Virus record (IMG/VR): IMGVR_UViG_3300002144_000204
Span: 1 to 24,851 of that record
From: a virus
Length of the DNA stretch: 24,851 nt
Strand: one strand, 5' to 3'
Shown one piece after another: positions 6,138-23,383 of the stretch (positions are counted from its first letter, which is position 1; each line of letters opens with the position of its first letter). Below the pieces are notes generated by a model. The model made no database searches and was not told the origin of the DNA. It was given only the letters and a program-made list of their open reading frames with translations. The translations under genes were made by a program, and so were the position numbers.

Positions 6138-6896
6138 TTAATTGTTTCTTCTTTCTATATCATCTTCAGACAATGTATCACCCATCCAAACTTCTATTAC
6201 TTTAACAGGAGTGCTGCCAACGTTAGTTGCTTTGTGCCAACAAAGCTTCGGTATGTCAATACTATCACCAGTTTCATATGTCTTAGAAGTACTGTAATCG
6301 TTTGTAAACTGTAATTCCATCTTAAGTTTACCATCAACGATATGCCAATGTTCAGATCTAATAAAGTGTCTTTGATCGCTTAAAGATTTTCCAACATCAA
6401 TAGATAGTTCTTTTACTTTCCAATGGCCGTTCTGGTCTAGATCTCTATATGTGCCCCAGAGTCTTTGTGTTTTAGGCTTATCCCAGTTCTTTAGAATCCA
6501 AGATGAACTGTTCTTTTTGTCGTGGCCACCGACACCAAACACAAATTGAACATCATCAAATACCATTTCTGGAATATTATATCTTGTTCTGTCACCGCCA
6601 TTAGCAAATACTATCTCAGCTGTTTTAGGGAAGTAGTTTTTGATATATTTTATAGCGTCACAAGCAGAATCATCACTATCATCAAATCCAAAAGTATGAC
6701 CAACACATTTGATATTATTAACTATATTTATACGTTCTTCAAAAGACATGAAGGGCTGACCTTTTTTACGAGTCAACCAATCATCACTGTTTACTCCAAC
6801 ACATAAAATATCACCAAGTTTTTTAGCTTCTTGAAAATAGGCGATATGCCCAGAATGAAGTGGATCGAATCCGCCTGTTACAACTACTACTCTCAT
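6138..6896 (-). CDS. Cytidylyltransferase-like nucleotidyltransferase fused to a sugar-isomerase-type cupin
   Basis: This 252-residue protein has two parts. Residues 1 to about 130 are a nucleotidyltransferase of the TagD/RfaE-C type, with GGFDPLHSGH (HxGH at 14-17), a conserved FEERI and ANGGDRTRYNIPE. These enzymes activate a sugar or polyol phosphate with CTP or ATP. Residues 145-252 are a cupin like the C-terminal part of type II mannose-6-phosphate isomerase/GDP-mannose enzymes (RLWGTYRDLD, HFIRSEHWHIVDGK, YETGDSIDIPKLCWHKATN, SEDDIERR); likely metal ligands are Q175, H177, E182 and H221. The longer ORF starts at a TTG at 6923. The ATG at 6896, with GGAG 8 bases upstream and a 4-base ATGA overlap with the FkbM gene, is better. 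It is probably part of a glycan-modifying set with the two genes before it; the actual sugar is unknown. Confidence 0.82.
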   Translation of the reverse strand: MRVVVVTGGFDPLHSGHIAYFQEAKKLGDILCVGVNSDDWLTRKKGQPFMSFEERINIVNNIKCVGHTFGFDDSDDSACDAIKYIKNYFPKTAEIVFANGGDRTRYNIPEMVFDDVQFVFGVGGHDKKNSSSWILKNWDKPKTQRLWGTYRDLDQNGHWKVKELSIDVGKSLSDQRHFIRSEHWHIVDGKLKMELQFTNDYSTSKTYETGDSIDIPKLCWHKATNVGSTPVKVIEVWMGDTLSEDDIERRNN

Positions 6897-10328: not shown

Positions 10329-10889
10329 TTATCCTTTATACAAATAAAGATCAACAGGAATACAAATTCTCAATTTAGAATAGTACGGATTAACATGATG
10401 ATATGTAAAACTTGGAAAAATCATGTAATCTCCAGTTTGCGGAGTATGCTTAAATCTCTGAAACATTGGTTCGAATTCTTCGTCATACCCTCTATTAGCG
10501 TTTGATCTTGGATCAGAAAATACGATATCACCACCTGATTTTTGATCTTCGGCCATAACATAAAACACTGCAGACAAATGAGCCCCAGAATGATTATGAA
10601 TAGTCATACTGTAATCTTTTCCGTGGCCAGTAATCCAGCCTTTCATTTCATGATTATTCCAATCAGTTATTTCTTTATTAATAGTTTCTTTTAAATAAGA
10701 GTTAAATTGATTGTAAACTAATTCTTTGAATAACTGCATTACGTCAGAATCGTCGTCAAATATATTGCAACCATCTACTTCAGCATCTAAATCATGCAAG
10801 TCGTAATTTGTAAATATGTGTTCAACAAGACCGCCAATTTCAAATTTACCACTGCCAAACATTGTTGGCCACTGTGGTGTCATTTTCAT
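10329..10889 (-). CDS. 2-oxoglutarate/Fe(II) oxygenase (Oxy_5-type)
   Basis: The 186-residue protein has the core of the 2OG-FeII_Oxy_5 family: an HNHSGAHLSAVFYV metal segment (H98, H100), SGGDIVFSDPR, then DYMIFPSFTYHHVNPY with a distal His (H164/H165) and LRICIPVDLYLY with R174 as the likely 2OG-binding arginine. Such enzymes hydroxylate proteins or small molecules. The segment DPRSNANRGYDEEF is nearly the same as in the 16417-16878 protein on the other strand, so the two are close paralogues. A GAGGAG ribosome site precedes the ATG, and an exact late promoter is at 10924-10931. It may belong functionally to the plus-strand modification cluster although it is transcribed divergently. Confidence 0.82.
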   Translation of the reverse strand: MKMTPQWPTMFGSGKFEIGGLVEHIFTNYDLHDLDAEVDGCNIFDDDSDVMQLFKELVYNQFNSYLKETINKEITDWNNHEMKGWITGHGKDYSMTIHNHSGAHLSAVFYVMAEDQKSGGDIVFSDPRSNANRGYDEEFEPMFQRFKHTPQTGDYMIFPSFTYHHVNPYYSKLRICIPVDLYLYKG

Positions 10890-11004: not shown

Positions 11005-11472
11005 ATGAATTTTCAACAGTTTGAAGAATTTCTATTATCAGATAAATGCTATGACGAACACGATGTATCTATTATTGATACAGACGGGCTTCAACACTAT
11101 ATTGAAGCAGCTGAGCACTTCGAATATCAAACTAAAATGACGAGATATTTGGCAGAACAAAAAGTAACTATTAAAGTTGAACAGATGGAAAACCACTGGA
11201 AGTTTAATGATCGTACAATCCATATGTTTTATAACCCAAAGAACGGTCCAACGTTTAGCGAGCACACAGATCCAATTGATGTTATTATTGAATGCAAAGA
11301 CGGTATTAAATACGTAGAAGTAGAAGGCAAGAAAATTGACTTACTTCCAAACGAACGACTACATATTCCAGCAGGAACATTTCACAAAGCATTAAACTAT
11401 GAAAAGGCATTGGTGATATCACATGGCATTAGCGACACAGAAACACTTGAGCGTTTACGTAAAGACGACTGA
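11005..11472 (+). CDS. JmjC/cupin-like 2OG-Fe(II) oxygenase candidate
   Basis: The protein has 155 residues. The C-terminal half has a cupin barrel pattern: HMFYNPKNGPTFSEHTDPIDVII with an HxD pair (H87, D89), a GIKYVEVEG strand, then LLPNERLHIPAGTFHKAL with the distal His H127. HxD...H with an IPAGTFH segment is the layout of JmjC-type protein hydroxylases related to ribosomal oxygenases, though this protein is short and lacks their C-terminal dimer domain. It may oxidise a side chain of the peptide substrate or bind a small molecule. It opens the plus-strand cluster behind a promoter region, and the next gene starts 50 bases before its stop. Confidence 0.66.
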   Translation: MNFQQFEEFLLSDKCYDEHDVSIIDTDGLQHYIEAAEHFEYQTKMTRYLAEQKVTIKVEQMENHWKFNDRTIHMFYNPKNGPTFSEHTDPIDVIIECKDGIKYVEVEGKKIDLLPNERLHIPAGTFHKALNYEKALVISHGISDTETLERLRKDD

Positions 11473-12430
11473 AACATGCAACTTAAATTGCTCTCATTGT
11501 TTTACGTCAGGCACTAACGGCGCTAAAATCTATTTTGATCCAGTGCGAACCGCAAATTGGGTTAATCAATTAGATCGAGATACAATTTTTTATGAATTTC
11601 ATGGCGGCGAGCCTATGCTTGCTTCTGTCGAATCGATGATGAAGTTTGTTGAACTAACAAAAGGTGAAGGTGTAGAATACGGTACAACTACAAACCTTGT
11701 ATATAAGTTAACAGATGAAAAGCTAAAGTTCTTTGATGAGGTTCTTAACAAAAGAATTGGCACATCGTGGGATCCTACAATTAGATTTACTAATGAAAAG
11801 CAAAGACAGTTGTGGGAAGACAATGTTAAATTACTTATTGCTCGCGGTTACACTATTAAAGTCTTTGTTAGTCTAAGCAAAGATGTTGTTAATATGGAAC
11901 CAAGAGATATTGTATCTTACATGGAAGATCTCGGTATTCAAGAAATTGATTTCGAACGCATCACTATGGATGGAAACGCTAAAGGTAAAATGTGGCCATC
12001 TAACATTGAGTTAGACGAATGGTTTGTGAAATACCACTCTCAGGTTGAATCTAGAGATGGAATTTATCATGTAATTATGGAAAATATCTATGCTAAATTT
12101 GAGGATAACAACCCATCCCGCGGCACATGGTGTAGAGACTGTGAGCAAAAGCTACTAACTATTAACGCAAATGGATCTATAGCAGGATGTCCTAACACTG
12201 CTCCTATTAACGCATATGGTCATATTGATACTCCAGCAAGTGTAGTCATGAAATCAAACGGACGCTGCGGTGTTATTATAAAAGAACTAAACAGAAATCC
12301 TGCGTGTTATGAATGCCCAGTCTTTGATGTGTGTGGTTCTGATTGTCACCAATTAGAATGGGAAGGCGACATATGTCCGTCTCCTAAGACCCTAATGATG
12401 CAATTAAAAAATGAATATAAATATAAATAA
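11423..12430 (+). CDS. Radical SAM protein with SPASM domain (peptide-maturase-like) 1
   Basis: The 335-residue protein has the radical SAM motif CNLNCSHC (C19, C23, C26), the HGGEP motif (60-64) and a C-terminal SPASM-type array: C237, C240, C256, then C295-x2-C298-x5-C304-x3-C308 and C318. SPASM radical SAM enzymes modify ribosomally made peptides and proteins by C-C, C-S or C-O bond formation. The gene overlaps the cupin gene by 50 bases. It lies immediately before the CHxS-repeat protein, the classic position for a maturase next to its substrate. A TTG at 11447 is an alternative start but has no better ribosome site. Its last codons contain two late-promoter motifs that serve the next gene. 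Confidence 0.9.
   Translation: MALATQKHLSVYVKTTETCNLNCSHCFTSGTNGAKIYFDPVRTANWVNQLDRDTIFYEFHGGEPMLASVESMMKFVELTKGEGVEYGTTTNLVYKLTDEKLKFFDEVLNKRIGTSWDPTIRFTNEKQRQLWEDNVKLLIARGYTIKVFVSLSKDVVNMEPRDIVSYMEDLGIQEIDFERITMDGNAKGKMWPSNIELDEWFVKYHSQVESRDGIYHVIMENIYAKFEDNNPSRGTWCRDCEQKLLTINANGSIAGCPNTAPINAYGHIDTPASVVMKSNGRCGVIIKELNRNPACYECPVFDVCGSDCHQLEWEGDICPSPKTLMMQLKNEYKYK
12416..12429 (+). promoter_or_regulatory. Overlapping pair of T4-type late promoters before the CHxS-repeat gene
   Basis: TATAAATA occurs at 12416-12423 and again at 12422-12429, inside the last codons of the radical SAM gene. They end 29 bases before the ATG of the 12459-13043 gene, as expected for late start sites. This suggests the substrate protein is made late and at higher level than its enzymes. 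The codons spelling it (Tyr-Lys-Tyr-Lys-stop) are simple, so chance is possible. Confidence 0.62.
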
Positions 12431-12458: not shown

Positions 12459-13043
12459 ATGGTATCATTAACAAATAATGTCAGCAGATCAAACACCCGG
12501 CAAAGGTGGGAAGATTATGTTGCAGACGCTGCTCGTGGAGGTATTTCGTGGGGACTTAATAATAAGCCGTTTCCTCAAGCGCCTAATAGCTGGTTTGGCG
12601 GTAATTACAACTCACCCCCAGCGAGAAGTTCTTATGCTGATGATAATACCCTCGGAAGTTCTGGTGGATTGATTACTGCGTCTACGCTCCGTAATGGTTT
12701 GGTTGCTGCTACTACTAACTGGACTCACCTGCGAAATATGAATGCACGAAGATATTTTAATAGCCAAGGCACAAATTATCTTCAAATTAACGTAACAGCA
12801 AAAGCATATCAAACTACAGCTGTTAGAGAAAACATTGCAGCGCCTGCTATTCCAACTAATGGGCCAAACGCGGGTAATCTGATTACTGCTGGCTCAGACG
12901 CTAGTAATACCGGTATCGAAGAATACTTTGCTAGATTGCGCAGTGCATATTATACAAAAAGAGATAGTGCATATCCTCGGTATGAATATACGTGCCATTA
13001 TAGTTGCCACTATAGTTGCCATTCCTCGAGAGGACGTAGATAA
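12459..13043 (+). CDS. CHxS-repeat protein: putative peptide-modification substrate / late virion protein
   Basis: The 194-residue protein has a hydrophilic body rich in Asn, Ser, Ala and Arg (residues 1-172) and a sharply different tail: YEYT, then CHYS, CHYS, CHSS (179-190) and RGRR. The only cysteines are the three in these repeats (C179, C183, C187). A terminal short repeat of Cys, His, Tyr and Ser next to radical SAM/SPASM genes is the layout of RiPP-type precursors. The His-Xaa-Ser repeat (HxsA) proteins matured by paired radical SAM enzymes are the closest known parallel. The length and composition of the body argue for a structural protein whose C-terminal tip is modified rather than a small secreted peptide. 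GGAG lies 10 bases before the ATG, and two late promoters lie upstream. The next gene overlaps its stop by one base (TAATG). I recognise no named family. Confidence 0.75.
   Translation: MVSLTNNVSRSNTRQRWEDYVADAARGGISWGLNNKPFPQAPNSWFGGNYNSPPARSSYADDNTLGSSGGLITASTLRNGLVAATTNWTHLRNMNARRYFNSQGTNYLQINVTAKAYQTTAVRENIAAPAIPTNGPNAGNLITAGSDASNTGIEEYFARLRSAYYTKRDSAYPRYEYTCHYSCHYSCHSSRGRR
12993..13028 (+). repeat. Three 12-base tandem units encoding Cys-His-Xaa-Ser
   Basis: The units start at 12993, 13005 and 13017. The first two differ by one silent base in the His codon (CAT/CAC), and the third keeps TGCCAT and diverges in the last two codons. They spell CHYS, CHYS, CHSS. The near identity suggests recent duplication of the unit. 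Confidence 0.85.
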
Positions 13044-13789
13044 TGATAAAAAATACAGTGGCTCCTATTCCTATTGAGTTGCTCAAGGAATATTTTAGTG
13101 ATGATACTATTGTTTTCAATATTGATTACGCCGAAAGTATTTTAAAAGGTGATAAGCTTATAACATATTTGAGCAATTTAGATGTTCCTTCTAAATTAAC
13201 TGGATGGGACAAAGTATCAACTGTAGATAAGTTCTCTTTTATTAAAGATTACATGAATGCAAAGTTGGTTATTAAAAACTATGAATTAGAAGCGTGTGTT
13301 CTACAGATTTTATTTGAGCTGTCTTACTTAGAATTTTTTGTTAGATACGAGTGTGAAGATATTCTAACACGCGAAGAGATTTGTAGTTTCTGCGAAGATA
13401 ATCAAGATCTAATACAAACATGGTTGACTATGCTAGCAAGTTGTTCTCTATACGCGTTAACAACAGTAGGTGAAGATAATGACTTATGTGATTTGATATC
13501 GAAAGAATTTGAAACAATAGACGATTACGACTACTGTGGTGTAAACTTCGTGATGTTATTTAGACATGAGATCATACAAGAACTATTAAGTGCTGATCGC
13601 GAAGTATATTATTTCGAGAAACAGTTTAACGAGCCAATGTTTAAAGGGCAAGACCTATTTACATTTTGGAACCATGAAAACAATACGATGGCAATCATTA
13701 CGTGGGGTATCTCATCAGGAGAGATTCTGCATGACGAGTTTTCCGCTAATATAGAAAAAGGACTGGACAATGTTTCTGCTATTCGATAG
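13043..13789 (+). CDS. Unknown protein coupled to the CHxS-repeat gene
   Basis: I do not recognise this 248-residue acidic protein. It is predicted mostly helical (LELSYLEFFVRYECEDIL, TREEICSFCEDNQDLIQTWL), with five or six scattered cysteines and no CxxC pair, signal peptide or membrane helix. The C-terminal part (YYFEKQFNEPMF, AIITWGISSGEIL) looks more globular. It starts in the TAATG overlap with the putative substrate gene, so the two are probably made together. A role as chaperone, scaffold or recognition subunit for the modification is a guess based on position only. Confidence 0.6.
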   Translation: MIKNTVAPIPIELLKEYFSDDTIVFNIDYAESILKGDKLITYLSNLDVPSKLTGWDKVSTVDKFSFIKDYMNAKLVIKNYELEACVLQILFELSYLEFFVRYECEDILTREEICSFCEDNQDLIQTWLTMLASCSLYALTTVGEDNDLCDLISKEFETIDDYDYCGVNFVMLFRHEIIQELLSADREVYYFEKQFNEPMFKGQDLFTFWNHENNTMAIITWGISSGEILHDEFSANIEKGLDNVSAIR

Positions 13790-14927
13790 AGTTTACGTAA
13801 AGTACGACTTTATGATGGACAACAATACTGATAACCTACTTTGCTCTCCAAACATTCCGAGTCTTATTTGGGATGAACTAGAAGCCATCCATACGAATAT
13901 GGGTGAACAAATGCACAGGGTAGATACCTACGAAGATCTTGTTGGTACCGCTGAAGTTGGCGCCTTAGATCGTAATGACGAACAAATCGTTATTCCTTAT
14001 CTTAATGACCTAGCATTCTTTGATGCTTTGTTAACAAAAGGCAAAGTAAATATTCACGTTGATACAATTGCATATGATAAGATCTTTTCTAAATTTTTAA
14101 AAATATTCTTTCCAGATATGTCAAGAGATGTTGCATGGAAAACATATAACATATTTAGAACATTCAGCCAAATGCTAAACACTACTAGTTTTGTATGGGG
14201 TGGAGCTGGCGAGCAACAACAAATCGATAATGCTGCTTCGTGGATACCTAGAACACAAACAGAATTTCTTAGTGTTTATGACAGCATATCACGAGATTTA
14301 GAAGATGCTGCGTATACTACTTTTATTGCTTCTGCTAAACAGAAAATTGGTATTGAGTTTATGATTGCTAATAGACTAGCTGGCGACGAAACCTACGACG
14401 TTTTTCTTGGCCAAAAGATGTATAAGCTTATGGTATCAAGAGTTAATGAAGAAGGTACGTTCTTAAAATCTACTTTGTTTAACAATATGTTCAGACCTTG
14501 GGTACAAACGGTGCTAGGCGTTACTGTAGACGCAAGTAATGACTTATTAGATCTTAAAGATACTAATGATAAAACACGTTGGTTGTTTGATGACGATGAG
14601 AAATATTTTACACCAGATTATCAGACAAGACATCCAAACATTCGATTTAGTGATATCCGTACCGCAATGATAGCTTCTATTACAGAGGATGTTACTCCTC
14701 AAGAAGAAGCGCTTACAGATCAGATGATGAATTTTGTTCATGATAATGTTTCAGTACAAAACTTTACGTCTGCTAATATCACAACCATATTAAACACTGA
14801 TAAAACTTACTTAGGACCATCTGTATTTGAATGCGAAGATAGAATTAAGGTTAACGCTTTGTTCTTAAGTTATATCTATAAGTTAGCTGTTGACGAAGAC
14901 GATGAGCTGAGTATATTTAGTCTATGA
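13770..14927 (+). CDS. Unknown conserved-looking protein, mostly helical
   Basis: The 385-residue protein starts MFLLFDRVYVKYDFMMDNN and has AAGGA 8 bases before the ATG, which overlaps the previous gene by 20 bases. It is acidic and helical, and I see no catalytic motif (no Walker, no radical SAM, no HxD...H set). Notable segments are WIPRTQTEFLSVYDSISRDL and KTYLGPSVFECEDRIKVN. With only a couple of cysteines it is unlikely to bind iron-sulphur clusters. It sits between the substrate-like gene and the first oxygenase/radical SAM pair and ends in an ATGA overlap. It may bind substrate or be a structural partner; the function is unknown. Confidence 0.6.
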   Translation: MFLLFDRVYVKYDFMMDNNTDNLLCSPNIPSLIWDELEAIHTNMGEQMHRVDTYEDLVGTAEVGALDRNDEQIVIPYLNDLAFFDALLTKGKVNIHVDTIAYDKIFSKFLKIFFPDMSRDVAWKTYNIFRTFSQMLNTTSFVWGGAGEQQQIDNAASWIPRTQTEFLSVYDSISRDLEDAAYTTFIASAKQKIGIEFMIANRLAGDETYDVFLGQKMYKLMVSRVNEEGTFLKSTLFNNMFRPWVQTVLGVTVDASNDLLDLKDTNDKTRWLFDDDEKYFTPDYQTRHPNIRFSDIRTAMIASITEDVTPQEEALTDQMMNFVHDNVSVQNFTSANITTILNTDKTYLGPSVFECEDRIKVNALFLSYIYKLAVDEDDELSIFSL

Positions 14928-15466
14928 TACAAAACTGCTATGAATCTTCGATATGGGTTAAACAATTTGATAATAGCAACGACTTCAATCAAGATGTTTT
15001 AAATATTACAAAAGCAATATCAGCTATGACTCCTGAGCCTGTAGCTGATCATAATGTTGATCTATGGGTGTCTGATAATATGCAGACTATTAGATCATAC
15101 TTTATAGAAGGCTTTAAAGATCTGTGTAGTCAGTATAATGAAACTCCTGACTTTGATATAGATTCAATGAATATGGTAAATCCTATGAAGCACGGCGACT
15201 TTAAGTCATGTCATAACCACGATGTTATCGACGCGTTCGGCGTGTATTATGTTAATGAATCAGATGAGGGCGGCAAGTTAAGATTATACGATCCAAGATT
15301 TCTTAGTAAGAAGTCATTTTCACAAGGTCCTTATATTGAGATAAAGCCACGAACTGGGCTTATGGTAATTGCACCATACTATGTTTGGCATGAGGTTACT
15401 CCATATCTAGGTAATGAAACCCGATACAGTTTAGTATGCAACATGGTATTTAATAATGTCACTTGA
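14924..15466 (+). CDS. 2-oxoglutarate/Fe(II) oxygenase (Oxy_5-type)
   Basis: The 180-residue protein shows the Oxy_5 core: SCHNHDVIDAFGVYYV (H97, H99), GGKLRLYDPR, PRTGLMVIAPYYVWHEVTPY with distal H156, and ETRYSLVCNM with R167 as the likely 2OG arginine. As in its relatives here, HNH replaces the usual HxD, so H97 or H99 with a nearby residue must make up the iron site. It would hydroxylate or desaturate a side chain. Its start overlaps the unknown 385-residue gene by 4 bases (ATGA), and the following radical SAM gene starts 11 bases before its stop. Confidence 0.82.
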   Translation: MIQNCYESSIWVKQFDNSNDFNQDVLNITKAISAMTPEPVADHNVDLWVSDNMQTIRSYFIEGFKDLCSQYNETPDFDIDSMNMVNPMKHGDFKSCHNHDVIDAFGVYYVNESDEGGKLRLYDPRFLSKKSFSQGPYIEIKPRTGLMVIAPYYVWHEVTPYLGNETRYSLVCNMVFNNVT

Positions 15467-16448
15467 TATGATAACAAAGCTGGACAAGCGAGGCAAGACT
15501 GGCGAAATCATTGTTACCTTGTTTGAATTCTGCAACTTAAGCTGTAAGTTTTGCAACCAAGACCACAATAGTCTAGAAGGTGTTAAGACTATTGTTGAAA
15601 AGATTAATACAGTAAAAGAAGTTATATTAAAAACACCAAAAGAAGAATACAGTGTTCACTTTATGGGTGGAGAAGTTTTTGCTGATGTATTACCTTTACA
15701 CGTCTATACTGATTACCAATATGTGTGTCACGAATTAAACGCATGGTCAGTAGAACAAAACATTAATCTAGAGATATGCTTTACTAGCAACATGGTATTT
15801 AATAACACCGATGATTTAGATCATTTGCTGTTAATTTCTAATCCTACATTAATAACTAGCTTTGATCCTGCGGCTCGCTTTAATAGTGATACATTTGAGA
15901 TATTTAAGCGCAATGTAAAGAAGTACAAAGATCATATTAAATCCGTTAATATCATCATGACTAAGCCGACTATAAATAAGTTTATGAAAGGTGATGTTGA
16001 ATTTTTTGATTATCTATATGATCATTTTGATGTTTACTTTGACTACTATACACCGGAAAAGAACATGGCGATGTTTATTCCTAATGATGTATTACTACGC
16101 GACTTTATGCTTTATATGCTTGAACATTATCCTAAAGCATTACCTTTTGCAGATTATACGAGCAAGATTAAGAAACAAATGAGCTGTATGGATACAGTAA
16201 CAATAATGCCAAATAATACTTATGGCAATTGTACTATCCTACTAAAAGATTTTAAAAATGTAACGACAACTAAGCAAGACATGGAGCAAGAATGGTTTAA
16301 GCAATATAGTTGTTTAACCTGTCCGCACTTTCAATACTGTTCTATGGGTTGTTTTTTGTCTAATCATATGCAGAGTTTTAGAACTCAAGAAGCATGTTGG
16401 TTAAGTGAGGTTTATGATGTGGTCCACGCCGATACAAGTACACGATGA
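15456..16448 (+). CDS. Radical SAM protein with SPASM-like tail 2
   Basis: The 330-residue protein has CNLSCKFC (C26, C30, C33), a FMGGEV motif (69-74) and a C-terminal C286-x2-C289-x5-C295-x3-C299 plus C314, the same spacing as radical SAM 1. The two also share the layout of the body, including an earlier pair (MSCMD..., GNCTILL) that could complete an auxiliary cluster. It is probably a protein or peptide maturase acting with the neighbouring oxygenases. An exact TATAAATA inside the gene at 15971 is probably chance. The next gene starts within its last 32 bases. Confidence 0.87.
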   Translation: MSLDMITKLDKRGKTGEIIVTLFEFCNLSCKFCNQDHNSLEGVKTIVEKINTVKEVILKTPKEEYSVHFMGGEVFADVLPLHVYTDYQYVCHELNAWSVEQNINLEICFTSNMVFNNTDDLDHLLLISNPTLITSFDPAARFNSDTFEIFKRNVKKYKDHIKSVNIIMTKPTINKFMKGDVEFFDYLYDHFDVYFDYYTPEKNMAMFIPNDVLLRDFMLYMLEHYPKALPFADYTSKIKKQMSCMDTVTIMPNNTYGNCTILLKDFKNVTTTKQDMEQEWFKQYSCLTCPHFQYCSMGCFLSNHMQSFRTQEACWLSEVYDVVHADTSTR

Positions 16449-16878
16449 TGGTTATAAAGATCCAATTGAGCGATATGCTCATTTCTTGCAGAAGCATTAT
16501 CAACTTGAATTAGAAGACTTCAAATACGATATCAGAAAGTGGGATACAACCCCAGAATCTGGATATTGGATGGCGCCGCATAATCACGGTCACTCACATT
16601 TCACATCTATATATTACGACTGTATCTCAGGAGAAGGTGGAGAATTATTACTCCACGATCCGAGGAATAATGCTAATAGAGGATACCCGCAAGAATTTGG
16701 CAACCAGTTTGCTCCTTATATTCTGCAACCTAAAACAGGCACAACAATAATCTTCCCATCATACATTTATCACACAGCTGCTCCATTTCGCGGAATAGTA
16801 AGAAAAGCTATTGTTACTGAAATTCAGCTAGGTAGCATAAATACAGGTGAGTCATATATGGGAGCGACGTCGATATGA
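16417..16878 (+). CDS. 2-oxoglutarate/Fe(II) oxygenase (Oxy_5-type)
   Basis: The protein has 153 residues from the ATG at 16417, chosen because GAGG (16407-16410) is 6 bases upstream; GTG 16405 and ATG 16414 are alternatives. It carries APHNHGHSHFTSIYY (H55, H57), GGELLLHDPRNNANRGYPQEF, GTTIIFPSYIYHTAAPF (H119) and R129. It is a close paralogue of the minus-strand oxygenase at 10329-10889, sharing the DPRxNANRGYxxEF segment, but is shorter at the N-terminus. The C-terminal 15 residues (NTGESYMGATSI) are extra. It overlaps radical SAM 2 and the following oxygenase (ATGA). Confidence 0.8.
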   Translation: MWSTPIQVHDDGYKDPIERYAHFLQKHYQLELEDFKYDIRKWDTTPESGYWMAPHNHGHSHFTSIYYDCISGEGGELLLHDPRNNANRGYPQEFGNQFAPYILQPKTGTTIIFPSYIYHTAAPFRGIVRKAIVTEIQLGSINTGESYMGATSI

Positions 16879-17513
16879 ATATTAATAAATTTTATAAAGA
16901 TGGCTACGATGAATGGCAGATGCCACCACATTTAACTGCTATGGTTTGGGGACAGCTGCTATGCGAGAATTGGATTGATCATCCTGTGTACAAAGAAGTT
17001 CCAGACTGGAGTATTAATAAAGGTGGTGAAGCTCAAAATCAAGATCAAAAGTATCTTAGAGGTAAAGAGCAAGAGATTAACAAACAAAGCCTAGCTATTG
17101 TTCCGCCGGCATATCAAACAGTAATAGAAGAATTACTTAAAGAAGATTATTATTCATCATGGTTTGAGACTGTATGCGGTTATCAACAAAAGATCAAATT
17201 CATTGATGTTTGGAATGGCTCTGATGATCTTAAATGGCATTGGGACGGTGTAGAAGACCACGATATGGGATTTCTAATATACTTTACAGAACAACACCAA
17301 TGGAACGAAGAATGGAAATCATATCTTCAAATCGGTGAAAGAGAGTGGCCTGATGAGAATGAAATTGATGTTAAACACACAGCTTATCCTGGCAACGGTA
17401 AGATTATCTTGCTGAATAACATGAACCCAAAATTTGTGCATTCTGTAGCAAAACTAACAAACAATAAAGTTAATAGATATACTATTAATGCTGGAATATC
17501 TTTATGGAATTAA
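16875..17513 (+). CDS. 2-oxoglutarate/Fe(II) oxygenase (HxD type)
   Basis: The 212-residue protein is a double-stranded beta-helix oxygenase: WHWDGVEDHDMGFLIYF gives HxD (H122, D124), GNGKIILLNNMNPKFVHSVAKL gives the distal His (H189), and NRYTIN gives the 2OG arginine R201. The conserved LLNN...FVH segment is shared with the 19057-19776 protein, so the two are paralogues. The long aromatic N-terminal half (residues 1-105) may shape the substrate pocket. It might act on peptide or on a small molecule. It starts in an ATGA overlap and overlaps the next radical SAM gene by 10 bases. Confidence 0.82.
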   Translation: MNINKFYKDGYDEWQMPPHLTAMVWGQLLCENWIDHPVYKEVPDWSINKGGEAQNQDQKYLRGKEQEINKQSLAIVPPAYQTVIEELLKEDYYSSWFETVCGYQQKIKFIDVWNGSDDLKWHWDGVEDHDMGFLIYFTEQHQWNEEWKSYLQIGEREWPDENEIDVKHTAYPGNGKIILLNNMNPKFVHSVAKLTNNKVNRYTINAGISLWN

Positions 17514-18505
17514 TTATTAAACCAACCGAGAGATGTAATTTTAAATGTACATTCTGTTCAAGTACATCTATTGCAGATGATGTTAGTGATGAACTAGGTT
17601 TAGAACATATTTACACATTTCTTAGAAGATTTCCTGACACACATACTATCATTGTAAACGGTGGCGATCCTTTAATGATGAAGCCATCTTATTACACAAA
17701 GCTGCTTGCGCATCTTGACGAACACGACTATCCTACTACAGTAGCATTTACAACAAACCTATGGCCATTTTATATGAAGCCAGAAAAATGGCTTGATATC
17801 TTCTTACATCCCCGTATAGGTATTACAACAAGTTTTCATTACGGCGACTCAAGACTAAAGGGTGATTATTCTGTATTCAGTGAAGAAGACTTCTGGGCTG
17901 TATCAGATAAAATGTTAGAACTAGTTGGGTATAGACCAGGATTTATTTCAGTTATAGATGAAGTTAATGCAGACAAGGCGCTTGATAATGTGCGCCTTGC
18001 AAAAAAGATGGGTGTTGAATGTAAACTGAACTACACAATGGCGTCTGGTATTGCAGGTCGGCCTTATCAATTATCAAAAATGTATAGTATCTATTTAGAT
18101 GTATATGAGGCCGGTTTAACTGAGTGGGAGTTTAACACCAAACAAATGGTTGAGCGGCTTCGTAATGAATCTATGATGTGCCCTCAGAATAGAGCATGTG
18201 ATAGTACTATTAGAGCTTTGCAACCAAGCGGAGATTATTATAGCTGTGGAGCGATGGGCGATGACAGAGAATACGCTATTGATTTTGAGAGAGAAATGGC
18301 TGGTGAATTCTTTACTCCATTACAACATGATCCTGATATTCAAACAATGAGATCTGATGGTGAATGCTATTCGTGCCCGATGTTCCAAATATGTAACGGA
18401 TGCAAGAAAACAGTAAAAGACACTAGACGACATAATATGGTTGAGACCCACTGTACATTGATGAAACAATTAGCGCCGAGGATTATAGATGCAAATAACG
18501 GATAA
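17504..18505 (+). CDS. Radical SAM protein with SPASM-like tail 3
   Basis: The 333-residue protein has CNFKCTFC (C11, C15, C18) very near the N-terminus, VNGGDP (51-56) as the GGE/GGD motif, and a tail with C288-x2-C291-x5-C297-x2-C300 plus C317; an earlier MCPQNRAC and YSCGAMGDD add further cysteines for an auxiliary cluster. The shorter N-terminus than radical SAM 1 and 2 means no separate leader-binding domain is visible. It is probably a protein or peptide maturase. It starts 10 bases before the end of the preceding oxygenase, and its stop lies 17 bases after the start of the next one. Confidence 0.88.
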   Translation: MELIIKPTERCNFKCTFCSSTSIADDVSDELGLEHIYTFLRRFPDTHTIIVNGGDPLMMKPSYYTKLLAHLDEHDYPTTVAFTTNLWPFYMKPEKWLDIFLHPRIGITTSFHYGDSRLKGDYSVFSEEDFWAVSDKMLELVGYRPGFISVIDEVNADKALDNVRLAKKMGVECKLNYTMASGIAGRPYQLSKMYSIYLDVYEAGLTEWEFNTKQMVERLRNESMMCPQNRACDSTIRALQPSGDYYSCGAMGDDREYAIDFEREMAGEFFTPLQHDPDIQTMRSDGECYSCPMFQICNGCKKTVKDTRRHNMVETHCTLMKQLAPRIIDANNG

Positions 18506-19067
18506 TGCACTGTCGCCTGTAGAATTTAAAACAATACTAAATTATTTTACGTCAGAAGCACCAAATTGGAAATTTGTTACTAATGTAACACACGGTTCTG
18601 TGGGCAATTACGCACATGGTCGGGAACAATGGGGCTTCGCGTGTAGCATATACGATAGTGGGAAAGGAATAGGTCGGAATTCAACAGAAGAAATAAAAGA
18701 TAGAACTGCTTTAAAAATAATTGAACCCATAATTATCGATAAAAATAAATTACTCAGAGTTAGAGTAGGTATGATATTAAATACAGGTCCCGATAAACCA
18801 CACACTCCTCATATAGATCAACCTAGCATAGAGCATTGGTCTCAATTATATTACCTAACTAGTAGCGACGCGCCAACTAATATATTTGAAGAGTACGGCC
18901 CTGACGAAAAATATAACGCGTTCAAACATGAAGATTTTACTATTAAATTCCAGTCTAAACCTGAGCCTAACAGAATGGTTGTGTTTGACGGTTGGCATTG
19001 GCATAGTTCATCGCACGTACATGGACCAGAAATGAGATTATCTGTAAATATTAACTATGCTAAGTAA
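18489..19067 (+). CDS. 2-oxoglutarate/Fe(II) oxygenase (HxD type)
   Basis: The 192-residue protein has PHTPHIDQPSIEHWSQLYYL with HxD (H108, D110), PNRMVVFDGWHWHSSSHVHGP with the distal His (H172 or H176) and EMRLSVNINY with the 2OG arginine R183. This is the layout of small prolyl-4-hydroxylase-like oxygenases; phage members act on unknown substrates. It differs clearly from the other six candidates, so it is a separate lineage rather than a recent copy. GAGGA is 7-8 bases before the ATG. It overlaps both neighbours (17 and 11 bases). Confidence 0.82.
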   Translation: MQITDNALSPVEFKTILNYFTSEAPNWKFVTNVTHGSVGNYAHGREQWGFACSIYDSGKGIGRNSTEEIKDRTALKIIEPIIIDKNKLLRVRVGMILNTGPDKPHTPHIDQPSIEHWSQLYYLTSSDAPTNIFEEYGPDEKYNAFKHEDFTIKFQSKPEPNRMVVFDGWHWHSSSHVHGPEMRLSVNINYAK

Positions 19068-19776
19068 TAGTCCAAACTTTAACAACTTATATCTGAAAGG
19101 CGCAGACATAGTTGATGTTGATTCGTCATTCTCTGCAATGCTGTTTGCTCAATTGCTTTCAGAGAAATTTTGCACAGAAAGTAGTTATGGTACTGCTATA
19201 ACTAACCCTGTATGGGACAGAGAATATAATGAAAGAGAAGAGCCTGTTTATGTTGAAGGTAAAAAGCCTTATGTGGAATTCTTCAAAGAAGTTATTAAAT
19301 CCCCGTACTTTGATTATTGGCGCCACGTTTACGGAGAGTTTGACGAGATACATGTTAATATTAACAAAGTAACATCAGGCGGAGAGATGCCTTGGCACTT
19401 CGATGGGTACGACGGAACGTTTCTACAAATACTGTGTTATCCTAATATGGATGATTTTAATCCTGATGATGGTGGACATCTTTTAGTAGGCAGACCTGAT
19501 ACATTATATCGCGAAGGTGATCCTATGCCGCATTGGGTTCCAGAAAAAAGCTTAGATGATATTCTAACAAGCAATGTAGAAGTAACACAAAGATTCGTTC
19601 CTAACAGAAACCAAGTAGTTGTTCTTAATAATAACGATCCATCATTTGTACATAGAGTAACAAAGCTCAGCGCTGATAAAACAAGATATACTATAATTGC
19701 AACACTAGGATTTAGTTCTTTGTGGAAAACAAACACGCTGAAGTCTGGTTTCTATAAAGATATACAGTTACTATGA
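19057..19776 (+). CDS. 2-oxoglutarate/Fe(II) oxygenase (HxD type)
   Basis: The 239-residue protein has PWHFDGYDGTFLQILCY with HxD (H114, D116), GGHLLVGRPDTLYREGD, RNQVVVLNNNDPSFVHRVTKL with H199, and DKTRYTI with R210. It is homologous to the 16875-17513 oxygenase over the LNN...FVHRV-K-L segment but has a longer N-terminal half and a 25-residue C-terminal extension. It probably hydroxylates a side chain in the same modification route. Its start overlaps the preceding oxygenase by 11 bases, and it ends in an ATGA overlap with radical SAM 4. Confidence 0.82.
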   Translation: MLSNSPNFNNLYLKGADIVDVDSSFSAMLFAQLLSEKFCTESSYGTAITNPVWDREYNEREEPVYVEGKKPYVEFFKEVIKSPYFDYWRHVYGEFDEIHVNINKVTSGGEMPWHFDGYDGTFLQILCYPNMDDFNPDDGGHLLVGRPDTLYREGDPMPHWVPEKSLDDILTSNVEVTQRFVPNRNQVVVLNNNDPSFVHRVTKLSADKTRYTIIATLGFSSLWKTNTLKSGFYKDIQLL

Positions 19777-20678
19777 TTATATCATTAAACCCAACTTACT
19801 TGTGCAACTTTAGATGTGATTTCTGTTATCTAACATCAGATCAATTAGCGGATAAGAATAAAATAGATTTAAATGTTCTTGATCAGCGCTTGTCTGAGGT
19901 AGCAAAACACACCCCGATTGAGCACGTTGATTTGTACGGTGGCGAGATTAGTGTGCTGGGCGACTCATACTTCTATGCTATGAAAGAAATTATTCGTAGA
20001 TATTATCAAAGCGATATTAATATTATAACGAACTATGCATCTCCTAAGCCATATATGCATGATAAGGATATATCTCTTTCAGTATCATATGACTTTGACG
20101 CTCGTGAAAAATCTGATTTAGTATTTACTAATATGGTTATGTGTCCTGTTCCAATCTCAATTCTAATACTTGCTAGCAGAAAAGTTATTGATATGGACGT
20201 TAAGTCTATGGTACAACAATTAAGTATGTTATCTAATATTCGTTCTGTAGAGATTAAACCATATTCAACGAACCAAGCTAACCAACAAGATGTTACTCAT
20301 AAGGACTTCGAGGACTTTGTTATTAAATGGCTTGAGATGGACTTGCCGTTTGAGTTTGAAAACAGACATCGCATAGAAGATTCAATTGCAAAATACTACG
20401 ATGCATTCAGTAATAATCATGTTTACATTAATCCTAATGGTAAGTTTTCCGTTCTAGAATTTGATGAAGACGACAATGAATACTTTCTAGAATTGAATTC
20501 GTTTGATGAGTATAGAGAGTGGGCTAAAAACGAAGCAAAAGATAATACAAGTGACATATGTAGAAATTGTGAATACTACGGTCATTGTTTAACTGAACAT
20601 TATAGATATGTTACAGATTTAACTAACAGTTGTAATGGATATAAGGGGTTGTTAGAATGGGCAAAGATAAAGTATTAA
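19773..20678 (+). CDS. Radical SAM protein with reduced (twitch-like) cysteine tail 4
   Basis: The 301-residue protein has CNFRCDFC (C11, C15, C18), YGGEIS (55-60) and a shortened C-terminal C263-x2-C266-x5-C272 followed by C287. The earlier cysteine pair that completes a two-cluster SPASM domain in the other three is absent; the region before the tail (HVYINPNGKFSVLEFDEDD) has no Cys. It therefore probably holds one auxiliary cluster, as in twitch-type enzymes. It may catalyse a different step from the others. It overlaps the halogenase gene by 22 bases. Confidence 0.85.
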   Translation: MIISLNPTYLCNFRCDFCYLTSDQLADKNKIDLNVLDQRLSEVAKHTPIEHVDLYGGEISVLGDSYFYAMKEIIRRYYQSDINIITNYASPKPYMHDKDISLSVSYDFDAREKSDLVFTNMVMCPVPISILILASRKVIDMDVKSMVQQLSMLSNIRSVEIKPYSTNQANQQDVTHKDFEDFVIKWLEMDLPFEFENRHRIEDSIAKYYDAFSNNHVYINPNGKFSVLEFDEDDNEYFLELNSFDEYREWAKNEAKDNTSDICRNCEYYGHCLTEHYRYVTDLTNSCNGYKGLLEWAKIKY

Positions 20679-21943
20679 TATGTGGGGGTGGTACTGCTGG
20701 TTGGTTAGCAGCATTAATGATGCATCAAAAGTTTGATGTAACACTTATCGAAAGCAAAAGTATCCCGACAATTGGCGTTGGTGAAAGCACAACTGAAGCA
20801 GTAACTGATGTATTGCGCGCTGCTGGAATTGACATGGAAGACTTTGTATCTAAAACAAACGCAACTGGCAAGTACGGCATAAAGTTTACTGGGTGGCCAG
20901 ACTTTTTTCATCCGTTTGGAGAAACTTGGTTACAAGAGCATATTGACGAAGATAGTCTTAAGTCAATTTATAATGCTGGCAAGGATATTAGTAACCTATC
21001 GCCGTATACACATTTAGCAAAAAACAAAATATCACCACCACTTGATTTTAAAGATCCGTATTTTCACGATGTTGCACTGCATTGGCAGAACGATCTAGTT
21101 GCTCCTTATCTAAAAGACTTTCTAGGCGATAAGATTAAGCATCACTATCATGATATAAAAACAATAAAATCAGACACGAATGGTATTAAATCGGTTGATG
21201 AGTTTACCGCTGATTATTATGTTGATTGTACTGGTCAAGCAAGACTTCTTAGTAGACAGTTTGGGATAGAATATATTCCGTTTGATGATCTACATTTAGA
21301 TTCAGCTATAATACATACTATGCCTAAAACAAACAATTTGTATACCGAAGCAATTAAAAGAAAGTTTGGTTGGGAATGGTCAATACCTCTACAAGACAGA
21401 AATAATAGAGGGTATGTATATTGTTCTAAGTGGGCTACTGAACAAGAGATATTAGAAGAAATTGGTGTTAAAGATAATTACGAAACAGTTAGTTTCTGTG
21501 CCGGTGCTTTAACTTCTATTGCTTATGAGAATATCATATCAACTGGACTATCGGCACACTTCATAGAACCACTAGAAGCTACTAATATTGAATTTAGTGT
21601 ATTTACTATTAAATGGTTTATGGAAGCAGTAGAAGCTGGATACGATTACGATGTACTGAATGATAAACTGTGCACGTCTGTAAGAGAGATTAGAGATTTT
21701 ATTATTTTACATTATCACAACGATGATAGGTTTAGGACAATAGAGAATATCCAAGATCGCCCACCAATAGAACCTTGGCATCCTTTTAATTGGTACTGTG
21801 TTGCGCAAGGTGTAAGTCCAACAAAGCACATAAATAGCAATATGGATGCTTTATTAGATTATGCGATTATTGAGGGGAAAATGCATGAAAGAATGGCAAG
21901 CAAGACAAGAGATCTACCGGAGGTTAAACAAACCAACAACTGA
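20657..21943 (+). CDS. Flavin-dependent tryptophan-halogenase-like enzyme
   Basis: The 428-residue protein is shorter than bacterial tryptophan halogenases (about 500-540). The FAD site is GGGTAGW (10-16), followed by GVGESTTE (40-47). K72, in NATGKYGIKFTGW, is in the place of the catalytic lysine of PrnA/RebH-type enzymes. WEWSIP (239-244) is the WxWxIP signature that separates halogenases from monooxygenases, and HFIEPLEATN (301-310) holds the conserved Glu. All key motifs are present, so an active halogenase is expected with reduced flavin from the host. T4-like cyanophages are known to carry such genes without a known substrate. In this cluster the aromatic residues of the CHYS tail (Tyr, His) or Trp in a virion protein are possible targets; this is inference. 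It needs a flavin reductase, and none is seen here. Confidence 0.87.
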   Translation: MGKDKVLICGGGTAGWLAALMMHQKFDVTLIESKSIPTIGVGESTTEAVTDVLRAAGIDMEDFVSKTNATGKYGIKFTGWPDFFHPFGETWLQEHIDEDSLKSIYNAGKDISNLSPYTHLAKNKISPPLDFKDPYFHDVALHWQNDLVAPYLKDFLGDKIKHHYHDIKTIKSDTNGIKSVDEFTADYYVDCTGQARLLSRQFGIEYIPFDDLHLDSAIIHTMPKTNNLYTEAIKRKFGWEWSIPLQDRNNRGYVYCSKWATEQEILEEIGVKDNYETVSFCAGALTSIAYENIISTGLSAHFIEPLEATNIEFSVFTIKWFMEAVEAGYDYDVLNDKLCTSVREIRDFIILHYHNDDRFRTIENIQDRPPIEPWHPFNWYCVAQGVSPTKHINSNMDALLDYAIIEGKMHERMASKTRDLPEVKQTNN

Positions 21944-22277
21944 TGATCTCAGCAAATTTGATATTGTATGGAGACCAGATACAATTGTTGAAGATGCGTT
22001 AAAGCACTTTAAAGAACATGTAGGTGAATGGATATATCCAGGCAAGTCGTACTTTGTTGCGATCTGTTATGCTACGTGGATTGCTAACGAATTTCATGAA
22101 AATCTTATCGAAGTATTAGATGATCCTGATTTACTACCAGACGATCCATACTTCCTACCGTATAACTTAGCCCGTGAAGAGTATGACCAAATTCTCAAGA
22201 ATTTAAAATGGCACGATACTGATGGCATGGTGCCAGATGTTCGTAAATACTATGATGAAGAGATGCATTATGATTGA
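21885..22277 (+). CDS. Unknown small protein following the halogenase
   Basis: The protein has 130 residues from the ATG at 21885, chosen because GAGGGG lies 7-12 bases upstream; a longer frame opens at 21861. It is acidic and helical, with an aromatic core (GEWIYPGKSYFVAICYATWIANEF) and an Asp/Pro-rich loop (DDPDLLPDDPYFLPYN). No metal or nucleotide motif is seen. It overlaps the halogenase by 59 bases and the next gene by 8 bases (ATGATTGA). A partner role for the halogenase is possible from position alone. Confidence 0.58.
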   Translation: MKEWQARQEIYRRLNKPTTDDLSKFDIVWRPDTIVEDALKHFKEHVGEWIYPGKSYFVAICYATWIANEFHENLIEVLDDPDLLPDDPYFLPYNLAREEYDQILKNLKWHDTDGMVPDVRKYYDEEMHYD

Positions 22278-22806: not shown

Positions 22807-23383
22807 AGCAAATAAAAGAATAGCAGTAGTAGGCGCTCACGGTGTAGGTAAGAATACCATCGCCATCAAATTACTTGAACGTGAGAAGTTTAGTGAACGT
22901 GGTGTTAACGTAACATATATGCCTGAGACGGTACGATCAACTATGTTTATGGACCACAACATTCTAGGCAAAGAGATCGGCGGTAATTATTACTCAGTGA
23001 GCTGGTTATTCCATAGACATTGGAGCCAAATGCTTGAACATGAATATAGCTGCGACGTGTTTATCTCTAAACGTCTTCCACTAGATTATGTTGTCTTTAA
23101 CGAAGTCGCGTTTGAGCTTGGTTTGTGCAATAGACAACTAGAGCTTATGTACAAAGAACTTGCCGTTTTTCAAGCAAAAGAGTTTGATGAAGTTTGGTTT
23201 GTAAGACACAATCCTGAACACGAGATGGTTGAAGATAGTGTAAGACAAGGTGAAGCTGGTAACGCTGACCTCCAACCGTTATGGGATCAGCGCTACAAAG
23301 ACATCATTGATGGCTGGGATATTCCTGTAATTGAAGGAACGTGTGGAGAGTTGCTAGCCCTCCACTTTGGTATTAAACCTTAA
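22799..23383 (+). CDS. P-loop NTPase, NadR/AAA_28- or nucleotide-kinase-like, with altered Walker A
   Basis: The protein is 194 residues from the TTG at 22799 (AAGGA 8 bases upstream); ATGs at 22775 and 22790 are alternatives but lack a usable ribosome site. It has RIAVVGAHGVGKNT near the N-terminus: the P-loop position after GK is Asn, where Ser or Thr normally binds Mg. A later VFISKRLPLDYVVFNEVAF resembles the Walker B region of AAA_28/nucleoside-kinase proteins, and RQGEAGNADLQPLWDQRYKDII a lid-type segment. It may phosphorylate a nucleotide or cofactor, or be impaired. It is the last gene of the plus-strand array; its stop overlaps the tail-fibre stop on the other strand by 11 bases. Confidence 0.72.
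   Translation: MGKANKRIAVVGAHGVGKNTIAIKLLEREKFSERGVNVTYMPETVRSTMFMDHNILGKEIGGNYYSVSWLFHRHWSQMLEHEYSCDVFISKRLPLDYVVFNEVAFELGLCNRQLELMYKELAVFQAKEFDEVWFVRHNPEHEMVEDSVRQGEAGNADLQPLWDQRYKDIIDGWDIPVIEGTCGELLALHFGIKP

Follow-up and report, generated by a model that had tools for sequence, protein, structure and literature searches.

A phage gene array that may chemically rebuild the Cys-His-x-Ser tail of a probable virion protein

Why would a virus encode four radical SAM enzymes, a series of oxygenases and a halogenase beside a protein of 194 residues that ends in three Cys-His-x-Ser (CHxS) units? The question is raised by IMG/VR virus record IMGVR_UViG_3300002144_000204, whose positions 1 to 24,851, the whole stretch of DNA that was analysed, are here called the window. 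The initial annotation described a T4-like phage in which the CHxS gene directly follows one radical SAM/SPASM gene and heads an array with three more, five 2OG oxygenases, an upstream cupin and a halogenase. All of its gene calls were reproduced. The halogenase runs past the end of the stretch that had been assigned to the array, and the gene list had left out the genes at 13043-13789, 13770-14927 and 21882-22277 as well as a sixth oxygenase on the minus strand (10329-10889). The features are as follows (family or profile matches in brackets).

10329..10889, minus: 2OG-Fe(II) oxygenase, divergent, accessory (PF13759 7.2e-14)
11005..11472, plus: cupin/JmjC-like protein, start of the core operon, 5' of radical SAM A in most loci (JmjC_2 1.4e-04)
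11423..12430, plus: radical SAM/SPASM enzyme A, with CNLNCSHC and SPASM cysteines (PF04055 1.4e-05, phrog_1802 6.8e-63)
12459..13043, plus: CHxS protein, 194 aa, proposed substrate; folded domain at residues ~10-179 plus C-terminal tail
12993..13040, plus: tail CHYSCHYSCHSSRGRR, residues 179-194, proposed modified core; common to at least 118 viral loci and four isolated jumbo phages, disordered in the model
13043..13789, plus: core protein, 248 aa, immediately 3' of the CHxS gene (phrog_20767 2.6e-47)
13770..14927, plus: core protein, 385 aa, with homologues in many marine loci as well as in FLC6 and DT01
14924..15466, plus: 2OG-Fe(II) oxygenase (PF13759 1.2e-10)
15456..16448, plus: radical SAM enzyme B, CNLSCKFC, SPASM-like C-terminus (PF04055 3.3e-06, phrog_1802 2.6e-36)
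16405..16878, plus: 2OG-Fe(II) oxygenase (PF13759 5.2e-11)
16875..17513, plus: 2OG-Fe(II) oxygenase (PF13661 3.8e-06)
17504..18505, plus: radical SAM/SPASM enzyme C, CNFKCTFC, 52-57% identical to jumbo-phage copies (PF04055 4.9e-10)
18489..19067, plus: 2OG-Fe(II) oxygenase-like protein (PF13759 2.7e-05)
19057..19776, plus: 2OG-Fe(II) oxygenase-like protein (PF13640 2.3e-05)
19773..20678, plus: radical SAM enzyme D, CNFRCDFC (PF04055 1.1e-06, phrog_1802 9.3e-35)
20657..21943, plus: flavin-dependent (tryptophan-type) halogenase, GGGTAG and WEWSIP, accessory (PF04820 2.3e-61, phrog_2928 8.1e-77)
21882..22277, plus: small core protein, recurring beside radical SAM D (phrog_20737 5.6e-37)
23373..24698, minus: tail-fibre protein with a C-terminal 'DLAExY' domain, converging on the array (phrog_19602 tail fibre 1e-06)

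The CHxS gene starts 28 bp after the end of radical SAM A. Every gene junction from 13043 to 20657 overlaps, so these genes very likely form one operon. The halogenase scores 208.5 bits with PF04820 against a cut-off of 21 and carries the GxGxxG-type and WxWxIP motifs. The 385-aa protein could not be placed convincingly in any Pfam, NCBIfam or PHROG family, and the phrog_20767 protein has a confident model, yet no PDB fold match.

As had been claimed, the only cysteines of the 194-aa protein are residues 179, 183 and 187, each followed by a histidine, within TCHYSCHYSCHSSRGRR-stop. AlphaFold (mean pLDDT 83.1, pTM 0.79) predicts a folded domain and a tail that is disordered from the first cysteine; comparison of the domain with the PDB gave no meaningful match. 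CHxS proteins are folded, of 124-309 aa, and 28 of 30 aligned homologues match the unannotated family phrog_35144. Their tails hold 3-14 units and usually end in RxRR. Serine occupies position 4 of the unit in all 80 distinct tails among the matches listed, although the search also allowed Thr, Arg and Cys. Among the matches listed, 129 distinct tail DNAs use both codon families for serine (AGY and TCN) and for arginine (AGR and CGN) with the residues fixed, which points to selection on the protein sequence of the tail. Expanded arrays have 5 CH units (loci L305 and L341), 6 (L302), 13 (L126) or 14 (L327), always with radical SAM A present; low-complexity CHxx matches have no such neighbour. 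The L302 homologue continues C-terminally of its CH array, and a Hint-like reading of this extension was not confirmed by Pfam.

A pattern scan of IMG/VR for the tail returned at least 120 stretches, 118 of which have the motif, C-terminal in every readable one. A permuted pattern gave 10 matches, none of them a real C-terminal tail. In a scan of cellular sequences, 12 of 44 loci had genuine C-terminal tails; 11 of these 12 had the enzymes, the remaining one (L158) stopping at a contig end, and the enzymes accompanied only loci with genuine tails. Together, the permuted control, codon usage in the tail and the scan of cellular sequences rule out a chance or low-complexity repeat. The hosts of the tail include T4-like marine phages, as initially described, but also phiKZ-like and Rak2-like jumbo phages and Bdellovibrionota-type chromosomes. 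The same tail directly follows the same radical SAM gene in the unrelated isolates FLC6 (...VCHSSCHTSCHGSRGRR), pPa_SNUABM_DT01 (...ICHTSCHTSCHSARGRR), Atu_ph07 (...FCHSSCHASCHNSRSRR) and Phosso (...YCHTSCHASCHSSRSRR). Whereas radical SAM A and C of the window find these four isolates at 36-57% identity, tblastn with the window's CHxS protein recovered none of their four CHxS proteins even at E=10; the enzymes and the tail are thus conserved, and the body of the protein is not. A tblastn search of the phage collection with the tail alone gave no match and missed known positives too.

The linkage of tail and enzymes holds in both directions. The initial annotation had named CHxS proteins lacking a nearby radical SAM gene as a refutation; among the matches listed, radical SAM genes occur in the retrieved DNA of 111 of 116 tail loci, and the other five are incomplete stretches, three of which have radical SAM genes elsewhere on the same contig. 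Conversely, where radical SAM A was located independently of the tail, the tail lay adjacent or further along the contig wherever the sequence allowed. One contig with radical SAM A and no tail within 6 kb carried two tails further along, as predicted, and apparent failures of the linkage at seemingly tail-less loci of type II order were dismissed on finding tails on the same contigs. Four or more radical-chemistry enzymes stand beside the tail. Judged by sequence comparison, the core of the system is the cupin, radical SAM A-D, the families at 13043, 13770 and 21882, and one or two CHxS proteins. The oxygenases and the halogenase, initially counted as parts of the system, are indeed present in the window, but the oxygenase set varies by lineage, and both kinds of enzyme are missing or different in most loci. 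Among the matches listed, the halogenase is confined to a few loci, chiefly the clade whose tail begins with CHYS, and beyond it L210 and L214. All CHYS-first loci sequenced through radical SAM D have it. In L210 and L214 two halogenases accompany a tail that contains no tyrosine, so the CHYS tyrosine is rejected as sole target, and its association with halogenase is only a lead.

The enzymes themselves resemble peptide maturases. All four radical SAM enzymes of the window carry the CxxxCxxC motif, and in 18 diverse A homologues both this motif and the SPASM cysteines (C232, C235, C251, C290, C293, C299, C303 and C313 of A) are invariant. With TIGR04085 (SPASM), A and C score 24.8 and 23.6 bits, just below the cut-off of 27. 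The best NCBIfam matches of A are DarE, HxsB and other maturases, all below cut-off, and every match to a named maturase family falls far under its curated threshold. The solved structures nearest to A include ChlB, anSME and CteB, which modify peptides or proteins. The locus has the layout by which a RiPP is recognised, namely a linked precursor, a conserved core (the tail) and a variable remainder (the body). Pfam and NCBIfam gave no match to an RRE (PqqD-like), a protease or an exporter in the window cluster; a divergent RRE in the core families is possible.

Where would such a product act? In 29 loci among the matches listed, a tail-fibre gene lies directly upstream of the operon. In the clade of the window the fibre gene stands at the opposite end of the array, and the 'DLAExY'-type domain that it encodes is found 5' of the cupin in other phages. 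In phiKZ-like phages another structural gene occupies the upstream position, and in predatory-type bacteria the system is near a pilin/S74 fibre chimera. Virion mass spectrometry of Atu_ph07, in the accessible part of the report, delimits a gene cluster 'CDS 170-215' (PMC6102473). Its first gene is the CHxS gene gp170, whose presence in virions rests on the boundary of that cluster. A putative role of the CHxS protein as a virion component is backed by the fibre-gene operons and by the Atu_ph07 proteomics cluster.

The tail, the enzymes and the frequent fibre gene, all shared, suggest that these viruses chemically rebuild the tip of their own tail protein. Heavy modification of the CHxS tail, as proposed initially, is also what we infer, and we consider it probable that the array is a phage-encoded RiPP-like system modifying, in place, the tail of a fibre- or baseplate-associated virion protein. 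As a leader that is part of the protein itself, the folded domain would deliver the tail to the radical SAM/SPASM enzymes, and these would act on the CHxS units one after another. The most likely product would be a small crosslink inside each unit, either a Cys thioether as made by ranthipeptide and sactipeptide maturases or a His-x-Ser three-residue cyclophane, which in some lineages oxygenases and halogenase might decorate. The protein would then stay uncleaved in the tail-fibre or baseplate apparatus, where a rigid or metal-binding tip may act at or near the host surface; retention and this role both have moderate support. Some points count against this explanation. Radical SAM enzymes are oxygen-sensitive, and 2OG oxygenases and flavin halogenases require O2; their operation in one cell is possible. 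A fibre neighbour is common, not universal, and no RRE was found. The wider claim, that phages of several unrelated lineages and some predatory bacteria share a modular machine making a new radical-made crosslinked Cys-His-x-Ser tip on a cell-attachment fibre protein, is one that we regard as evenly balanced.

The same gene content could be read in other ways. After modification the tail might be released as a small secreted peptide, the folded domain being only an oversized leader and the product a true RiPP, that is, a toxin, a siderophore-like metal binder or an anti-competitor. Proteusins combine a folded leader with a short core that a flavin brominase can modify (PMC10858898), core repeats expand here to 13-14 CH units, and the L302 extension could be removed. 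This is nevertheless unlikely, given that the window cluster yielded no peptidase or exporter, that the RxRR end and the extreme C-terminal position are retained, and that the operon follows tail-fibre or baseplate genes in many phages, with the Atu_ph07 virion cluster, as far as its report is accessible, beginning at the CHxS gene.

Somewhat less likely still is that the tail stays unmodified and uses Cys and His to bind Zn, Fe or Cu, the radical SAM enzymes being engaged in sugar, host-metabolite or other chemistry. Cys-His repeats are good metal ligands, and metal-binding tips are known from phage spikes; but metal binding does not explain why, in unrelated phages and in bacteria, this single tail is paired almost without exception with a single radical SAM family, nor does it explain the invariant position-4 serine (80/80) or the kinship to peptide maturases. 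In the accessible part of their article, Iyer et al. assign a cyanophage halogenase/2OG/cupin cluster to metabolite or sugar decoration (PMC7824862), which fits both this possibility and a third, in which the cluster is a set of auxiliary metabolic genes that serve a small molecule or the modification of host components, with the CHxS protein as an accessory carrier. Timms et al., likewise in the portion available, take the many radical SAM genes in Campylobacter phages to be metabolic (PMC2853527). We hold that third possibility to be highly improbable: the core is without known biosynthetic starter enzymes, the halogenase and oxygenases are missing or different in most loci, and the peptide tail is, besides the enzymes, the only sequence conserved over all loci.

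Virions are usually seen as assemblies of ribosomal products that mature through proteolysis, folding and a handful of simple modifications. Modification of the tail in place, if true, would be the first known case in which several enzymes chemically mature a virion component in the style of a RiPP; phages would be building parts of their host-contact apparatus by chemistry, with at least four radical SAM enzymes per 16-residue tail. It would bring new bond chemistry, new accessory protein families and an enzyme set to modify the C-terminus of folded proteins, give a role to the unannotated phrog_35144, phrog_20767 and phrog_20737, and explain radical SAM-rich phages hitherto termed 'highly unusual' or metabolic. 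Cultured phages with the system exist, which makes a direct test possible.

Among known systems, HxsA/HxsB/HxsC/HxsD, to which the initial annotation had compared the array, also has repeated His-x-Ser at a protein end and radical SAM enzymes encoded with it, and the window tail contains three H-x-S units, each preceded by Cys. The window type differs in having Cys before every His, 3-14 units, a usual RxRR end, four or more radical SAM enzymes and a phage tail-gene context. None of the models tested supports membership, which was rejected: HxsB gives 42.1 bits for A (cut-off 370), HxsC 30.0 for C and 17.7 for D (cut-off 267.9), the HxsA model had no match among 30 CHxS homologues (NCBIfam, E<=10), and HxsD none for the genes at 13043, 13770, 21882 and 22222. 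The radical SAM/SPASM maturases of sactipeptides, ranthipeptides, darobactin, dynobactin and cyclophanes (ChlB, CteB, PapB, DarE, DynA) share the radical SAM core and SPASM cysteines, and they supply the weak family matches and the nearest PDB relatives. In contrast to their short precursors, the window substrate is of a folded type of 124-309 aa, in a cluster with no identified protease or exporter. In the maturation of quinohemoprotein amine dehydrogenase, the radical SAM/SPASM enzyme QhpD crosslinks a subunit that stays in a larger machine. The match to its family is weak (TIGR03906, 25 bits), and the window system has another substrate, several enzymes and a phage genome, but a retained crosslinked protein is what is proposed here.

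A literature search found no paper that connects phage tails with CHxS or with radical SAM RiPPs. The cyanophage cluster, the Campylobacter phages and Aeromonas phage 332-Vera, which has eight radical SAM genes within its structural cluster (PMC12390700), resemble the window in having halogenase and oxygenase genes or many radical SAM genes; unlike here, the accessible parts of these reports recognise no peptide substrate. The SrpI proteusins are bacterial-type natural product precursors rather than phage tail proteins and have no CHxS tail, but they too join a structured part to a core, and their flavin-dependent brominase acts on a structured protein substrate (PMC10858898).

On the left side of the window, a 24,851-base virus record from IMG/VR, lie terminase, tail sheath stabiliser, head closure and head-tail adaptor genes. 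A dense gene array spans from a cupin (11005) to a halogenase (20657-21943), with an overlap at every junction from 13043 to 20657, and because all of these junctions overlap, the array genes are very likely co-translated. Family scans bore out the enzyme set proposed in the initial annotation, namely four radical SAM enzymes, five 2OG-Fe(II) oxygenases, the cupin and the halogenase. The following features were also delimited:

13043-13789: array member of undescribed function, phrog_20767
13770-14927: array member of undescribed function (385-aa family)
21882-22277: array member of undescribed function, phrog_20737
23373-24698, minus strand: fibre gene with a 'DLAExY' domain, closing the other end of the array

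At 6138-6923 (minus strand), the window also encodes a cytidylyltransferase fused to a mannose-6-phosphate-isomerase-type cupin, with a probable role in sugar-nucleotide chemistry. The window's phage recurs as DGBH01000096.1 (99.99% over 7 kb), binned in the Bacteroidetes MAG UBA4009, possibly a host hint or a binning error.

The proposed substrate is the 194-residue CHxS protein (12459-13043, plus strand), whose cysteines had been described as limited to its C-terminal Cys-His-x-Ser units; all indeed fall within the terminal TCHYSCHYSCHSSRGRR. A degenerate DNA pattern for CHxSCHxSCHxxR.R, run over IMG/VR, matched at least 120 stretches; among the 120 listed, 118 carry the motif and the other two are low-complexity. 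Wherever the frame of these 118 is readable to a stop, the motif is the extreme C-terminus. As a control, a permutation of this pattern with the same information content had 10 matches, with no real C-terminal tail among them. The search pattern left several positions free and permitted Thr, Cys and Arg at the fourth position, which is Ser in 80 of 80 distinct tails; the last residue is Arg in all 80, and Ser follows the third CHx in 73 of them. Across 129 distinct tail DNAs, Cys is encoded by TGT and TGC, Ser by AGY and TCN, and Arg by AGR and CGN. Loci reached via radical SAM A rather than via the tail revealed natural variants (CHYD, CHNN, CHSN and one CHYSCFTSSCHFS).

Starting from the tails, radical SAM family members were found in the fetched DNA at 111 of 116 loci, as expected from the initial pairing of tail and enzymes. 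The other five were cut short, and for three of these (L025, L065, L090) radical SAM genes were fetched separately from the same contigs. The reverse search, with a profile of radical SAM A (11423-12430 in the window), confirmed 393 relatives, of which 80 were kept. Many radical SAM A loci are of type I, with the tail right behind this gene. In type II loci the order is cupin-A-C-D-p138-B, with converging radical SAM E genes behind it, and several of their contigs carry paired CHxS proteins of about 130 aa, known from the tail scan. L238, a type II locus without a tail inside 6 kb, was predicted to have one further along its contig, and two were found. In L011, L043, L057, L071 and similar type II loci, the two neighbouring CHxS proteins of about 130 aa have related bodies and are accompanied by several radical SAM E copies; such pairs possibly form a heteromer. 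Loci of at least 11 kb that have both tail and radical SAM A number 88; many are clipped by a contig or fetch end, and some overlap on one contig. Of the 88, 81 show the cupin, 82 phrog_20767, 73 radical SAM B, 65 radical SAM C, 63 the 385-aa family and 12 the halogenase, a census that clearly divides core from accessories.

The halogenase is present in every locus with CHYS as first tail unit that was read through to radical SAM D, which makes the Tyr of this unit a candidate target. Tyr targeting does not hold as a general rule, since L210 and L214 have two halogenases and no tail Tyr. These two loci form a second lineage, in which the two halogenase genes and several oxygenases lie directly 5' of the cupin. 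The radical SAM array of phage FLC6 (L007 16316-17529) includes two dihydrofolate reductase-like genes, between B and C.

The units are multiplied in five loci, all with radical SAM A adjoining the CHxS gene: L126 and L327 have 13 and 14 CH units, both arrays ending in RGRR; L341 has five units, then RARR; L305 has five and ends in SSGGW; and L302 has six, behind which a Pro/Thr-rich linker leads into a further domain. Low-complexity four-unit matches were without an adjoining radical SAM A. Such repetition of units, paired with enzymes of their own, is the pattern of repeat-core RiPP substrates. The expanded tails of L126 and L327, both phage contigs, consist of CHSSCHSNVPV repeats. In L302, a PTEAP linker precedes a domain of about 150 residues that starts with CVAIASLLPDG and ends with HHNLPTQKV; by eye this domain resembles the self-cleaving Hint/intein type, a reading that Pfam did not confirm.

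With the window's radical SAM A as query, tblastn returned seven phage records, from Agrobacterium, Sinorhizobium, Burkholderia and Pseudomonas phages. At all four loci read, a protein with the same tail lies directly downstream of radical SAM A:

Agrobacterium phage Atu_ph07 gp170
Sinorhizobium phage Phosso
Burkholderia phage FLC6 gp72
Pseudomonas phage pPa_SNUABM_DT01

None of these four carriers was recovered by tblastn with the window's CHxS protein, even at E=10. Its AlphaFold model, built with a 30-sequence alignment (mean pLDDT 83, pTM 0.79), matches the Atu_ph07 protein and a 178-residue viral protein in BFVD. The tblastn failure and the structure match together indicate that the bodies diverged beyond tblastn recognition while tail and enzymes did not (radical SAM C: 52-57% identity between window and phage copies), and the predicted fold shows CHxS bodies to be related across unrelated phages. 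The model has helices, a long beta hairpin, another helix and a final strand reaching residue 179, which is the first Cys, and it leaves residues 180-194 without structure. A PDB search with this fold gave no match, nor did one with the phrog_20767 protein, which also models well (pLDDT 88.7). In BFVD, three large proteins of Myoviridae sp. ctijX18 (A0A8S5USJ7, A0A8S5USJ8, A0A8S5USV2) have the CHxS body fold.

A conserved C-terminal 'DLAExY' domain marks the fibre gene (PHROG tail fibre) that 29 loci have upstream of the cupin and on its strand. In most of these loci the fibre gene overlaps the cupin or is at most 43 nt away, and large structural genes lie 5' of it. In FLC6 and DT01, the upstream gene encodes a virion structural/tail protein, not a DLAExY fibre. 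According to the Atu_ph07 paper, most proteins found by virion mass spectrometry map to CDS 31-76, 170-215 and 284-329 (PMC6102473), a numbering consistent with the record (portal gp198). Cluster 170-215 starts at the CHxS protein gp170 and leaves out the phrog_20767 homologue gp169; from this boundary between the two, gp170 is read as probably detected in virions.

A scan of prokaryotes (one genome per species, 84,980 species) gave 44 pattern matches, with genuine C-terminal tails at 12 loci. Enzymes of the CHxS system lie beside the tail in the fetched DNA at 11 of these 12, the twelfth (L158) being cut off. One of the 12 is the copy of the window's phage in MAG UBA4009. Several others are on long contigs of Bdellovibrionota-type MAGs, in surroundings that read by eye as housekeeping (e.g. 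ribosomal protein S20, dapF, cbb3 oxidase, metG), and no phage genes were seen around them; the system is rare in that phylum (5 of 369 genomes). Near two of these loci is a protein with a pilin-type N-terminus and a C-terminal Peptidase_S74 fibre domain, the pilin motif being Pfam-confirmed in one. Prey recognition by Bdellovibrio uses S74 fibre proteins (PMC10769870). The chromosomally embedded CHxS/radical SAM clusters of L274-L278 (382 kb and 228 kb contigs of Bdellovibrionota-type MAGs) and L276 include cobalamin-type radical SAM enzymes (about 575 aa) and 2OG oxygenases, and near them are the pilin-type/Peptidase_S74 chimera and a protein of about 200 aa ending in VDGRHWV[QK]VK.

The analysis shows a conserved tail on a folded carrier, dedicated enzymes and a frequent fibre-gene setting. 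We propose a mechanism in which the enzymes would be docked by the carrier domain, the CHxS units would each be processed by radical SAM A with its partners, and the protein, once finished, would become part of the phage tail. Relatives of radical SAM A catalyse thioether formation, cyclophane formation, or Cys/Ser oxidation, and family models and PDB structures relate it to maturases with such chemistries. The Cys of C-H-x-S could serve for a thioether, and the H-x-S spacing would suit a three-residue cyclophane.

Among family models, only the unannotated phrog_35144 matches the CHxS protein, and membership in the HxsA system was tested and fails. In the passages covered, the papers on FLC6, S13, 332-Vera and the Campylobacter phages describe these radical SAM genes as anomalies or assign them to metabolism, and make no mention of the CHxS tail. 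As its chemistry is still putative, the CHxS system is rated within the known type of radical SAM peptide/protein maturation rather than as a new kind, a status it would deserve if the tail proves to be modified in virions.
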